Below, piece by piece: positions 17,350 through 21,569 of a stretch of 64,000 bases of DNA. The DNA is from Caulobacteraceae bacterium (lineage in GTDB: Bacteria; Pseudomonadota; Alphaproteobacteria; Caulobacterales; Caulobacteraceae). The stretch is taken from positions 1 through 64,000 of the forward strand of contig CANJLH010000010.1 in NCBI GenBank assembly GCA_947475415.1, given 5' to 3'. The first letter of the stretch is position 1; every line of letters starts with the position of its first letter. A program made the position numbers and the translations under genes. The notes beneath the pieces were generated by a model. The model did no database searches, was not told the origin of the DNA, and saw nothing but the letters and a program-made list of their open reading frames with translations.

Positions 17350-17622
17350 TTATTCCGCCGCCGGCGCCATCGGCGCCACCACATTCACATAGGTGCGGGC
17401 GTTCTTCTTAGTTTCGAACTTCACCGCGCCTTGCGCCGTCGCAAAGAGGGTGTGGTCCTTGCCCATGCCCACATTGTCGCCGGCGAAGAATTTGGTGCCG
17501 CGCTGGCGGACGAGGATGTTGCCGGCTGCGACCGCTTCGCCGCCATATTTCTTCACGCCGAGACGGCGGCCTGCGGAATCGCGCCCGTTGCGCGAAGAAC
17601 CGCCTGATTTCTTGTGCGCCAT
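17350..17622 (-). CDS. rpmA: 50S ribosomal protein L27
   Basis: A 90-residue ribosomal protein whose N-terminal tail reaches the peptidyl transferase centre. [20 protein letters not shown] is the standard N-terminus, and it has no cleavable Firmicutes-type extension. [28 protein letters not shown] is diagnostic. It is 29 bp downstream of rplU. Confidence 0.98.
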
Positions 17623-17651
17623 GGCGCTCTCCTAAACTTTACAGCCGGACC

Positions 17652-18245
17652 TTATTCGTCCGCCGCGTCCTTCGCAGACTTTTTCGGGGCGGCTTTCTTG
17701 GCCGCGGGTTTCTTTTCCGCGCCTTCGGCGGCGGCCGCCTTGGGCTTGGGAGAGGCCTTGGCCTTGGCGGCTTGCGCCGGCGCGGCGGCCTCAGCTTTGG
17801 GCGCGGTCTTCTTCTGGGGCTTGGCCGGGGCGTCGCCGACCACCGTCTCCGGAAGCTTGAGATTGCGGGCGCGGGCGTTGAGGACCGCCTTGGTGGTCAG
17901 GTCAACAGTTCCCTCCCACTTGGCGGACTTGCCCTCGCCGTCGATGCCGGTGACACGCAGCACAGTTTCGAACTGGCGATGACCGCGAGTGCGGCGATAG
18001 CCCTGACGGCGGGTTTTCTTGAAGATCTTGACCTTCAGGCCCTTGCGGGTCTCGATCAGCGTCGCGCTCACCTTGGCGCCGGCAAGCATCGGGGCGCCAA
18101 CGAACACCTGTTCGCCATCGCCCAGCATCAGCACGTCGCCGAAGCTCACCGCCGCGCCGGGATCACCGTCCAGCCTTTCGACCACCAGCACGTCGCCGGG
18201 CTGCACCCGGTACTGCTTTCCGCCGGTCTTGATCACCGCATACAT
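17652..18245 (-). CDS. rplU: 50S ribosomal protein L21 with long Ala/Lys-rich tail
   Basis: An early 23S rRNA-binding protein of the large subunit. Residues 1-103 form the normal L21 domain (MYAVIKTGGKQYRVQPGDVL; VKIFKKTRRQGYRRTRGHRQ). The total length is 197, nearly twice the E. coli protein. The extra ~90 residues are rich in Ala, Lys and Pro (KAEAAAPAQAAKAKASPKPK) and look disordered; long L21 tails are known in alphaproteobacteria. It is the first gene of rplU-rpmA. Confidence 0.97.
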   Translation of the reverse strand: MYAVIKTGGKQYRVQPGDVLVVERLDGDPGAAVSFGDVLMLGDGEQVFVGAPMLAGAKVSATLIETRKGLKVKIFKKTRRQGYRRTRGHRQFETVLRVTGIDGEGKSAKWEGTVDLTTKAVLNARARNLKLPETVVGDAPAKPQKKTAPKAEAAAPAQAAKAKASPKPKAAAAEGAEKKPAAKKAAPKKSAKDAADE

Positions 18246-18344: not shown

Positions 18345-19478
18345 TCAACGCGCTGGCGCCGCCTCATTGGCTGGTGGCCCGGCGACGCGGCCGGTGTCGG
18401 CCTCCCACTGACGCACCACCGCGGCGGAGACGCCTTGCATAAGGGCGAAACGCGCCGGCATGCGCGTTATCGATCGACCCACCAGCACCGCCACGGCATA
18501 GGCCCGTCCGTCCGGCGCGGTGATCACACCAACGTCGTTGTAACCCACCACCTTGTCGCGCCAATCCTGGCCGGTGCCGGTTTTGTGGGCGATCTTCCAC
18601 CCGGCTGGCAAACCGCCCTTCAGGCGGTTGGGGCCGGTGGTGGAACGACTCATCACCTCGATCAACCGTCGGGTGGACTGCGGCTTCAGCAACCGGCCGG
18701 CCTGTAGGGCGGCCAGGGCGCGCGCCACGCCCATCGGTGTTCCGCGGTCGGGCATGTTGGCCATGTACCGCGCCACCGCCGCGTCACGGACCTCCTCGGG
18801 CAGATTCTCCCGATCAATCTTGAAGGACTTCCCGTGTCCATAGGCGTTACGCCAGCGCAGACCGGCGATGGCCGATTGCAGGTGGCGCTCCTCGCCCCCG
18901 GCGCGGATACCCGCCAACCCTTTGGCGTCCAGCACCGCCTGAATCGCAGCGGCCCCGCCCAGGAAACGCACCAGTTTGTCGGCCGCGGCGTTGTCGCTGT
19001 CGATCAGGGCCCGCGCCATCAGGTCGTCCAGGGTGGTCCGATAGCCGTCTGGGCCATATTCCTTGGCGATGGGCTGGTAGAATACCGACAGGTCCTCGTC
19101 GCGCATGACCACAGGGTCGTCCAGGGACCAACGATCGTGGTCGGCGCCGTCCAATAGCGCCAGCGCCACCCACAGCTTTGATACGCTCTGCTGTGGGAAA
19201 TCCTGTTCCCCGGCGACCGCGGCTGTCTTGCCGTCCGTCAGGTCAATCACTGCTATGCCCACTGGATCGGCGAAGGCGCTCGCCAGTGTTTCCAATTCAG
19301 ACTGCAGGCGAGGAACCTCTGATTTGCTGGACACGGTGATGGCCGGGGATAGCGGTACCGGCGGTGCGACGGCCGGCGGCGGGCTGCGGAGGGCCAACCC
19401 AAGGGGGGCTGTGATGAATGCGGCCAGGAACGCGGCGGCAAGCCAGGCGGCCCAGGCCTGCGCCCGGGGCCATCTCAT
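18345..19478 (-). CDS. Class A beta-lactamase-fold serine hydrolase
   Basis: A 377-residue protein with an N-terminal signal or anchor (AWLAAAFLAAFITAPLGLAL), therefore periplasmic. It carries the class A motifs SVSK (98-101), SDN (161-163) and KTG (299-301). At the omega loop it reads E197-R-H-L-Q201 where class A enzymes have E166xxLN, so the general-base Glu is plausibly kept but Asn170 is replaced by Gln. An extra ~30 residues separate this loop from the GTP motif (246-248). It may be a genuine penicillin-hydrolase relative or a peptidoglycan-acting homologue. The start ATG 19478 overlaps the dmeF stop (ATGA), so the two are coupled. Confidence 0.85.
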   Translation of the reverse strand: MRWPRAQAWAAWLAAAFLAAFITAPLGLALRSPPPAVAPPVPLSPAITVSSKSEVPRLQSELETLASAFADPVGIAVIDLTDGKTAAVAGEQDFPQQSVSKLWVALALLDGADHDRWSLDDPVVMRDEDLSVFYQPIAKEYGPDGYRTTLDDLMARALIDSDNAAADKLVRFLGGAAAIQAVLDAKGLAGIRAGGEERHLQSAIAGLRWRNAYGHGKSFKIDRENLPEEVRDAAVARYMANMPDRGTPMGVARALAALQAGRLLKPQSTRRLIEVMSRSTTGPNRLKGGLPAGWKIAHKTGTGQDWRDKVVGYNDVGVITAPDGRAYAVAVLVGRSITRMPARFALMQGVSAAVVRQWEADTGRVAGPPANEAAPAR

Positions 19479-20404
19479 ACCGCGCGCCTGACCTCGAGGA
19501 TCACGTGGCTTAGACCGGCGAGATCGGCGAGCCGAGCGCGGTAGACCTGAGGCGACTGCGGATCGGAGGCCACTATCAGCGCCATCGCCGCATGGTGGCC
19601 CGGACCCAGCCGCCACAGGTGCAGGTCCGCGACTCGCTCGCCGCCGCATTCCAGCCGTGTCCGGACTTGCCTGGTCAGTTCCGGGCTGGGGTTGACGTCA
19701 AGCAGGGCCGGGCACGCCCGTCTGAGCAGACGCCAAGCGAACTGAGCGACTAGGCCAGCGCCGATGAGCCCCATGATCGGGTCGGCCCAGGTCCAGCCCA
19801 GTCGGCGTCCGGCGATGAGCCCAGCGATGGTCAGCACGCCCACCAAGGCGTCTGCGGTGAGGTGCAGGTGGGCTGCCGCAATATTGAGATCGCCGTCCTG
19901 ATCGTGGTCATGGCGGTCTCGGCTGGCCGGCTGCAACAACCAGACGCAGACCAGGGTCACCGCCAGTCCGGCGACGGCCAACGGCAGGGCGGAACCGAAG
20001 TCCACGGCTTCCGGCGCGATCAGGCGATGGAGACTCTCCGAGGCGATCGCCAGGGCAGTGACTCCGAGCACCACGGCATTGGCGAATCCCGCCAGATATC
20101 CCACTTTGCCGGCGCCGAAGGCGAACCTCGGATCGTCTGCGTGGCGGCGTGCATAGGCATAGGCGAACGCCGACACCGCCAAGGCGGCCACATGGGCGCC
20201 CATGTGCAGCCCTGCGGCGGTGAGCGCCATGGAATGAAACAACACCCCGCCCGCCACCTGGGCCGCCAGAGTCGCCGCGCAGATTCCGGCCACGATCCAG
20301 GTGCGCCTTTCATTGCGAGCATGGTCGGCGCCTAGATAGACATTGTCGGCGCGGAACTGGTCCAGGGGGGCGTCCGGCGAGTCGCTGGGATCGGCGATGG
20401 TCAA
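19475..20404 (-). CDS. dmeF: Cation diffusion facilitator, DmeF-type Co/Ni/Zn exporter
   Basis: A 309-residue inner-membrane metal/proton antiporter with six transmembrane segments. The metal-site helix reads AAGLHMGAHVAAL, with His replacing the Asp found in ZitB-type proteins, and the later helix has HLHLTADALVGVL. This His-rich pattern is characteristic of DmeF. The C-terminal cytoplasmic domain (LTRQVRTRLECGG...) follows. The best start is TTG 20404 with GAGG nine bases upstream. It is divergent from a COG0523 GTPase across a Zur-box-like palindrome and coupled to the beta-lactamase-fold gene downstream. Confidence 0.87.
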   Translation of the reverse strand: MTIADPSDSPDAPLDQFRADNVYLGADHARNERRTWIVAGICAATLAAQVAGGVLFHSMALTAAGLHMGAHVAALAVSAFAYAYARRHADDPRFAFGAGKVGYLAGFANAVVLGVTALAIASESLHRLIAPEAVDFGSALPLAVAGLAVTLVCVWLLQPASRDRHDHDQDGDLNIAAAHLHLTADALVGVLTIAGLIAGRRLGWTWADPIMGLIGAGLVAQFAWRLLRRACPALLDVNPSPELTRQVRTRLECGGERVADLHLWRLGPGHHAAMALIVASDPQSPQVYRARLADLAGLSHVILEVRRAV

Positions 20405-20425
20405 TGGCGGCCTCGTGGCGACTGG

Positions 20426-20448
20426 TGTATGTTATTGTATAACACTTC
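20426..20448. promoter_or_regulatory. Zur-box-like palindrome in the dmeF/COG0523 divergon
   Basis: TGTTAT-N3-ATAACA is a perfect inverted repeat in an otherwise GC-rich region. Against the Zur consensus GAAATGTTATA-N-TATAACATTTC it matches about 17 of 22 positions. It is centred at 20437, about 86 bp upstream of the GTPase start and 33 bp upstream of the dmeF start. COG0523 genes are classic Zur targets in proteobacteria, which supports the assignment; zur itself is not in the window. Confidence 0.75.
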
Positions 20449-20522
20449 AGTTGGCGGCAAGCCATCTGGGGATTGACCATCTGAGGTTTGAATGTCTGCG
20501 CAGGCGGACTAGATGTAGGCGC

Positions 20523-21569
20523 ATGAGCGAAAAGACACCCGTGACCGTGCTGACCGGCTACCTGGGCGCCGGCAAGACCACCCTGCTGAACCGCATCCTC
20601 TCGGAGGATCACGGCAAGCGCTATGCCGTGATCGTCAATGAGTTCGGCGAGATCGGCATCGACAACGACCTCATCGTCGGCGCCGACGAGGAGGTGTTCG
20701 AGATGAACAACGGCTGCGTATGCTGCACCGTTCGCGGCGACCTGATCCGGGTGCTTTCCGGCCTGATGAAGCGCAAGGGCAAGTTCGACGCAATAATTGT
20801 GGAGACGACCGGTCTGGCCGACCCGGGGCCGGTGGCCCAGACCTTCTTCGTCGATGACGACGTCCGCGCCCGCACCGAGCTCGACAGCGTCACCACTGTG
20901 GTGGACGCCAAGCATCTTCCATTGCGGCTGGCGGATTCCAAGGAAGCGGTCGAACAGATCGCCTTCGCCGACCAGATCGTGCTCAACAAGACAGATCTAG
21001 TCAGCGAGGCGGAGTTGGCGTCGGTGGAGGCGGCCATTCGCCGCCTGAACCCGCTGGCGCCCATCCACCGGGCGCAGCGGTCTGACGTGAGCCTGGACAA
21101 GATCCTGGGCCGCGGCGGATTCGACCTGCAGCGGATCACCGCCCTGGAGCCGGAGTTCCTGAATCCGGGCCACGGCGAGCCGGGCCATGTTCACGACGAC
21201 CATTGCGATCATGACCACGGTCACGGCCACGACCATCATCACCACGAAGCGGTGATGGATCACGTCGCCGCGGCGGGCATCCGCGGGATTTCGCTACAGG
21301 TGGACAAGCCGCTGAACGCCAATCGGGTCACCGCCTGGCTGAACGGGGTGCTGGAGGCGCAGGGGCCGGACATCCTGCGGGCTAAAGGGATACTCAGCGT
21401 CGCTGGCGACGACCGCCGCATGGTGTTCCAGGCCGTGCACATGATCCTTGAGGGCGACTACCAGGGTGAATGGCCCGCGGGCTCGGCGCGGACCAGCCGA
21501 CTGGTGTTCATTGGCCGCAACCTGGATGAAGCGGCGCTGCGGTCAGGCTTCGAGGCCTGCGCGGCCTGA
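20523..21569 (+). CDS. COG0523 (CobW-type) GTP-dependent metallochaperone
   Basis: A 348-residue G3E GTPase. GYLGAGKT (12-19) is the P-loop, GCVCC (64-68) the metal-binding CXCC motif, and NKTD (155-158) the guanine specificity motif. Residues 217-247 are a His/Asp-rich stretch likely to bind zinc, followed by a CobW C-terminal domain. Zur-regulated members of this family deliver zinc to client enzymes during zinc limitation. The Zur-like site upstream supports that role over cobalamin synthesis, and no cob genes are present. ATG 20523 begins MSEKTPVTVL. Confidence 0.9.
   Translation: MSEKTPVTVLTGYLGAGKTTLLNRILSEDHGKRYAVIVNEFGEIGIDNDLIVGADEEVFEMNNGCVCCTVRGDLIRVLSGLMKRKGKFDAIIVETTGLADPGPVAQTFFVDDDVRARTELDSVTTVVDAKHLPLRLADSKEAVEQIAFADQIVLNKTDLVSEAELASVEAAIRRLNPLAPIHRAQRSDVSLDKILGRGGFDLQRITALEPEFLNPGHGEPGHVHDDHCDHDHGHGHDHHHHEAVMDHVAAAGIRGISLQVDKPLNANRVTAWLNGVLEAQGPDILRAKGILSVAGDDRRMVFQAVHMILEGDYQGEWPAGSARTSRLVFIGRNLDEAALRSGFEACAA

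Follow-up and report, generated by a model that had tools for sequence, protein, structure and literature searches.

A putative Zur operator accompanies a DmeF-type metal exporter gene across Phenylobacterium

The dmeF–COG0523 locus and its intergenic palindrome

The window, a stretch of 64,000 nucleotides from a Caulobacteraceae genome, carries two divergent genes around a short palindrome. On the minus strand, dmeF (19475–20404, TTG start) encodes a Co(II)/Ni(II)-type exporter of the CDF family (PF01545) with a His-poor loop, whose product reaches 338 bits against the DmeF model NF033827 (cut-off 250). On the plus strand, 20523–21569 encodes a COG0523 (CobW-domain) GTPase with CobW N- and C-terminal domains (PF02492 and PF07683), which falls below every NCBIfam equivalog cut-off (ZigA, 199 bits against 600). 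The gene identities proposed in an earlier sequence-only reading of this locus are upheld by these matches. No dmeR-like gene stands directly before the window dmeF, whose upstream neighbor is the divergent COG0523 gene. The genes rplU and rpmA lie close to the locus (17350–18245); a table in the available part of PMC6103462 places ribosomal proteins L21 and L27 in the Zur regulon of C. crescentus, and the available text of PMC4176598 says that none belong there.

Between the two start codons, positions 20430–20444 read TGTTATTGTATAACA, the perfect TGTTAT-N3-ATAACA palindrome that the same reading had reported there. This is an exact instance of the Caulobacteraceae-type Zur operator, an inverted repeat of the form TGTTAY-N3-RTAACA; its own core, with TGT as N3 on the plus strand, is absent from the five C. 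crescentus cores. The box edge lies 25 bp from the TTG of dmeF and 78 bp from the ATG of the GTPase gene; the distances of 33 and 86 bp given previously are the same ones measured from the box center.

A pattern search found this box to be the sole match with at most two mismatches across the 64-kb window, where a mean of 0.12 matches is expected and 11 of 100 shuffles held at least one. Across the 3.92-Mb genome the same tolerance returned 16 sites, against 12 for the backwards-read pattern, indicating that inexact sites are not enriched. Two of the 16 are exact, against none for the backwards control of a slightly wider pattern, and the remaining 14 carry two mismatches. The second exact site (C40:5331) is located on a 5.7-kb contig, between another divergent dmeF/COG0523 pair. 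This contig of the window's assembly (C40, 1–5667) holds a second type-A dmeF (see below), the box and the start of a COG0523 gene. Its DmeF is 67% identical to that of the window, and its COG0523 fragment is 98.6% identical over 70 residues; rplU, rpmA and other neighbors from the window have no match on it. The C40 pair may represent a genuine duplicate, or the contig may stem from a related strain.

Conservation of the box

DmeF was detected at an E-value of 1e-50 or better in 85 of the 101 genomes of the genus. From the genus search and an order-wide search we examined 96 dmeF loci, leaving out one match cut at a contig end (genome G222); start codons in these relatives are tblastn estimates, not annotation. 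Proteins at least 53% identical to the DmeF of the window were termed type A, and those at 46–51% identity that are paired with a COG0523 gene were termed type A'. The 53% line was set after the locus table had been viewed, though without use of the box.

All 73 type-A loci carry, close to the start of dmeF, a box with at least 10 of 12 matching positions: 33 match exactly, 25 at 11 positions and 15 at 10. Of 14,600 shuffled segments, 21 reach a score of 10. None of the 12 type-A' loci reaches 10 of 12: nine score 8–9, six of them having TGTAACTTTGTAACA, and three score 5–6. No score above 8 was seen in the remaining 11 loci, which are canonical or unpaired and include five from other genera. 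The type-A' loci (L098–L107, L018 and L019) come from a clade of 12 small genomes and have another palindrome, TGTAAC-N3-GTAACA, or none. Such genomes can hold classical boxes elsewhere, as G096 does.

Outside this set, a sample of 385 genomes of the class gave a DmeF match at 1e-40 or better in 36, including that of the window. The 29 loci from the other 35 genomes (L197–L225) have no box at 10 of 12 (best score 9) and no neighboring COG0523 match. Among 80 loci from named records, which overlap the genus genomes and are not an independent set, 55 encode a DmeF at or above 53% identity; 54 of these have the box, and the remaining one (L282) ends before the box position. None of the other 25, below 53% identity, has it. 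Cultured strains with a box at this locus include Phenylobacterium kunshanense BUT-10, P. haematophilum DSM 21793 and P. deserti YIM 73061. A chance palindrome is ruled out by the window shuffles, by the genus-wide backwards control described in the next section and by the conservation across type-A loci.

Six genomes (G022, G159, G177, G180, G216 and G221) encode a type-A DmeF alongside a second, more distant one. The gene ahead of the distant, canonical dmeF in G022 belongs to the FrmR/RcnR family, at a score below the curated cut-offs. Taken together, the two-copy genomes and this regulator-type gene make a division of labor plausible, with one copy for metal excess and the other for zinc scarcity.

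Identity of the regulator

The pattern TGTTAYNNNRTAACA is present in 83 of the 101 genus genomes, usually one to three times, and its backwards control is found in none of the 101. We inspected 30 box loci, the first 30 from the genus pattern search and not a random draw. In 14 of them the box accompanies dmeF, in 12 it accompanies zur, a gene for a znuD-like TonB receptor or both, and in four it lies elsewhere. At one zur/znuD-like locus the best models were ZnuD for the receptor and Zur for the regulator, both below curated cut-offs. The window genome encodes two Fur-family proteins, one of them Zur-like, with E. coli Zur as its best solved relative and a score of 90 bits against the NCBIfam Zur cut-off of 167. 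The box-linked Zur-like proteins of the genus, taken with that of the window, score 90–104 bits against the same curated cut-off.

In C. crescentus, both binding and repression have been demonstrated at Zur sites, according to the available text of PMC4176598. Two cores of that species, that of zrpW (TGTTACTTTATAACA) and that of znuK (TGTTATATCATAACA), recur in Phenylobacterium. The earlier description of the box as Zur-like is therefore well supported by conservation in the genus, by the company of zur and znuD-like genes and by identity with the C. crescentus cores, and we regard the box as almost certainly a Zur-type operator on these sequence grounds. That it instead binds another regulator, such as the second Fur-family protein encoded in the genome, and has no role in zinc, is highly improbable: the same kind of box stands beside zur and znuD-like genes, the genus shares cores with C. 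crescentus sites shown to bind Zur, and its conservation excludes chance.

Within the window genome, a search for PF01297 (the ZnuA-family importer) returned no match, as did the control Caulobacter vibrioides, and a search for a znuD-like receptor, run without a positive control, gave none at 1e-20. Elsewhere in the genus, a box of genome G182 (L144, at position 1501 of contig C112) is separated by about 545 bp from an additional COG0523 gene whose product is 60% identical to that of the window; in this genome the first COG0523 gene has lost its box. Three further exact boxes (L134, L137 and L145) stand beside genes that match neither dmeF nor zur/znuD, and these neighbors are possible new Zur targets.

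The gene served by the box

The sequence-only reading had the box serve the GTPase, as a zinc chaperone, and possibly the exporter. Genomes in which the two genes have come apart allow these assignments to be weighed. In 12 genomes dmeF and the COG0523 gene are separated by inserted genes, by 33 kb or by location on different contigs. The box remains at dmeF in all 12 (10–12 of 12 matches), and none has a box in the 250 bp before the COG0523 gene (best scores 5–8 of 12). On a DmeF tree built from 90 of the 96 rows (L057, L016, L015, L073, L075 and L020 were left out because their start estimates were too short), the 12 separated genomes require nine changes, at least four of them forced by well-supported branches. 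These forced changes indicate that the separations do not go back to one event. Since many of the genomes are MAGs, errors of assembly or binning could account for some of the separations. The inserted genes, judged by eye, often include two oxidoreductase subunits; in L176–L180, L182, L192 and L193, long ORFs lie between dmeF with its box and the COG0523 gene, and by eye they resemble subunits of a molybdenum hydroxylase-type oxidoreductase.

Five genomes retain the COG0523 gene without a dmeF match. Two of them have a box (G162 and G206), two have none (G224 and G231), and one has a half relic with 9 of 12 matches (G187). The box of G206 borders directly on the gene that normally follows beyond dmeF, and that of G162 borders on rplU; by our reading of these loci, both arrangements look as they would after deletion of dmeF, although the box may serve the COG0523 gene in these two genomes. 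Genomes G243 and G222 have dmeF beside the box and were accordingly excluded from the separated and the COG0523-only sets. At the COG0523 promoter, then, the box is present in 0 of 12 separated and 2 of 5 COG0523-only genomes. On the separated loci we reject the box as chiefly a GTPase operator, though G162 and G206 keep it without a dmeF match.

The distance from the box to the COG0523 gene is also loose (56–274 bp, n = 60). A −10-like element lies 14–15 bases before the estimated COG0523 start in 37 of these 60 loci. For the window this predicted GTPase-gene −10 is ACTAGATG (20508–20515, plus strand), 15 bases before the ATG, and the message would be expected to be leaderless. Judged by the separated genomes, the box probably has its main target elsewhere than in the GTPase gene. 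The part of the earlier proposal that concerned the exporter is borne out by the association with dmeF; the part that concerned the chaperone, as chief gene served, is not supported by the comparison of separated genomes. Where the genes are unseparated, as in the window, the box may nevertheless affect the COG0523 gene too.

One box might still repress both divergent genes, so that exporter and GTPase would be switched on together in zinc starvation. Most loci keep the divergent pair around the box, Zur represses COG0523 genes elsewhere among bacteria according to the partly available literature, and G162 and G206 show the box with a COG0523 gene and no dmeF. We nevertheless consider joint repression improbable, given the box-free COG0523 upstream regions of all 12 separated genomes and of G224, G231 and G187, the variable gap to the COG0523 gene and the presence of a −10-like element of its own.

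Promoter geometry and direction of regulation

On the dmeF side the spacing is nearly fixed. Read in the dmeF direction, the 60 bases that precede the box contain TTGAC in 43 of the 73 type-A loci, at −15 (28), −16 (13) or −19 (2) and at no other place. A box-anchored profile of 35 non-redundant loci, in which the box lies at least 15 bases from the estimated dmeF start, displays this TTGAC element together with TATA-like bases inside the box. In 24 loci whose box adjoins the dmeF start, a weaker T-rich element appears about one base further in. The near-fixed spacing and the TATA-like bases lead us to place the predicted dmeF −10 beneath the box. In the window it is TATACAAT (20441–20434, minus strand), and the predicted −35 is TTGCCG (20455–20460, minus strand), at the place that TTGAC takes in 41 of the 73 relatives (at −15 or −16 from the box); with this sequence, the window is not itself among the 43 TTGAC loci. 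The Zur-type operator at 20430–20444, a palindrome without strand, thus covers the predicted −10 and lies downstream of the predicted −35, not upstream of it as in the zitB and czrCBA type of site.

This position bears on the sign of regulation. In C. crescentus, Zur sites on the −10 or between the −10 and −35 repress, and the czrCBA site upstream of the −35 activates (PMC4176598, available text). Likewise, the box of the Zur-activated zitB of S. coelicolor is located 8 nt upstream of the −35 (PMC5472717, in the part available). By the Caulobacter rule, a box on the predicted dmeF −10 has repressor geometry, with dmeF off when zinc is present and on in starvation. X. campestris shows that the sign cannot be read from geometry alone: going by the available text of PMC6103462 and PMC9827704, the CDF gene XC2976 is activated by Zur from a GC-rich site that extends over −35 to −10 and is unlike a Zur box.

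The earlier reading had suggested that one site could repress the chaperone gene and act on the exporter in the opposite direction, as Zur does in Xanthomonas. Activation of export by Zur is described for Xanthomonas, Streptomyces, Pseudomonas and Caulobacter in the available portions of the literature, and the X. campestris protein acts from over the −35 to −10 region. Repression of the GTPase gene with activation of dmeF at high zinc is nonetheless very unlikely at this locus, where the site sits on the predicted dmeF −10, far from the COG0523 gene, which the box does not follow; according to the available sources, the activating sites of S. coelicolor and C. crescentus lie upstream of the −35. 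That the operator belongs to dmeF and represses it is the reading we consider likely from the sequence.

Such an arrangement would differ from those published. The available part of a Zur-regulon review presents CDF exporters only as cases in which export increases with zinc (PMC6103462), and the Zur–exporter links that we located in the available literature all have export rising at high zinc. Three CDF exporters are described as under direct Zur control in the accessible text of PMC5472717, PMC6103462 and PMC9827704: zitB of S. coelicolor, the czcD-like XC2976 of X. campestris and zrf of C. glutamicum. Export by these systems goes up with zinc, for zitB through activation from upstream of the −35, for XC2976 from its GC-rich site and for zrf by repression at low zinc. 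In contrast, the window dmeF has a classical box that covers the −10, which predicts that export would go up at low zinc. No report of a Zur-repressed dmeF was found among the matches listed in our literature search, which mostly covered papers outside subscription.

Relation to known systems

The closest parallel is zrpW–zrpX of C. crescentus (CC0320–CC0321), where, as here, a Zur operator of the same class is positioned on the promoter of a transporter with six membrane spans beside a COG0523 gene (available text of PMC4176598). Repression of zrpW was demonstrated there by reporter and EMSA. The transporters differ, the ZrpW-like protein having no Pfam or NCBIfam match and that of the window being DmeF. 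In the same available account zrpX is thought to be cotranscribed with zrpW, whereas dmeF diverges from its COG0523 gene.

The DmeR–DmeF (dmeRF) cobalt/nickel systems, as described in the available literature, use the same exporter family. Unlike them, the type-A dmeF of the window has no such regulator in front, encodes a His-poor loop and carries a Zur box instead. The ZupT–CobW2–CobW3–DmeF proteins of Cupriavidus metallidurans likewise place COG0523 proteins and DmeF between zinc starvation and cobalt; its Zur regulon, in the available text of PMC11340326, includes zur, zupT and cobW genes but not dmeF, whereas at the present locus the Zur box stands at the gene for the outlet.

Seven genomes of another genus, g4, which we take to be Caulobacter from its zrpW-like gene, have a COG0523 locus whose best box matches at 10–12 of 12 positions. 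In one locus (L320) the box directly precedes the zrpW-like gene, between rplU and the COG0523 gene. Two relatives (L312 and L322) have a CDF gene in this slot, ZitB-like in L312, and no box, and L308 has an ABC-3 permease there. Across L306–L322 the transporter neighbors of COG0523 vary by genus, comprising zrpW-like, DmeF, ZitB-like CDF and ABC-3 permease proteins. The slot beside COG0523 changes its partner, and the Zur box accompanies zrpW-like or type-A DmeF partners in the loci read.

Proposed role of DmeF under zinc limitation

We infer Zur binding, repression, substrate and purpose from the sequence, as follows. Zinc-loaded Zur on the dmeF −10 would block RNA polymerase, keeping dmeF off when zinc suffices, and zinc scarcity would turn it on. 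The GTPase gene would use its own promoter, with control by the box absent or secondary. The protein would most likely export Co(II) and Ni(II) admitted through derepressed zinc importers, which could otherwise load into the empty zinc sites of starved cells. This purpose is modeled on Cupriavidus metallidurans, where, according to the available text of PMC11340326, zinc-starved cells take up cobalt and substitute it for some of their zinc, DmeF is the outlet for cobalt, and ZupT and CobW proteins under Zur control are also involved. By this analogy we tentatively propose DmeF as a Co/Ni valve in zinc starvation, an assignment whose chances are close to even but short of it.

Zur may well repress dmeF and the protein still move zinc or another metal, for instance for a periplasmic need during starvation. 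Type-A DmeF has lost the His-rich loop, with 0–2 His in five rows where four canonical rows have 10–14, and also an Asp beside the metal site, three residues before H67. These losses may have brought a change of substrate, and the one type-A' protein tested scores 206 bits, below the DmeF cut-off of 250. Against a change, H67, H71, H181 and D185 are invariant between type-A and canonical DmeF over 11 rows, the position of H71 being Asp in the aligned zinc transporter 7, and both the window protein and that of L095 (289 bits) pass the DmeF cut-off. A different substrate, which is compatible with repression of dmeF by Zur, thus seems unlikely, although it keeps an appreciable share of the probability.

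The Co/Ni valve reading would place an exporter of the Co/Ni type under Zur and not under a cobalt/nickel sensor. Scarcity of zinc, even with cobalt not in excess, would then suffice to trigger the expulsion of competing metals, and Zur would govern selectivity, with the transporter slot beside COG0523 (zrpW-like in Caulobacter, DmeF in Phenylobacterium) as a family-wide place for such valves. From the sequence comparisons we hold this broader proposal possible, at slightly under an even chance. Export that rises at low zinc makes sense if the exporter removes a metal other than zinc. If the proposal is true, the cell would under Zur import the right metal and export the wrong ones, the DmeF family would be split within one genus between a metal-excess sensor and Zur, and the exclusion of cobalt and nickel from zinc sites would be directly testable in cultured Phenylobacterium.
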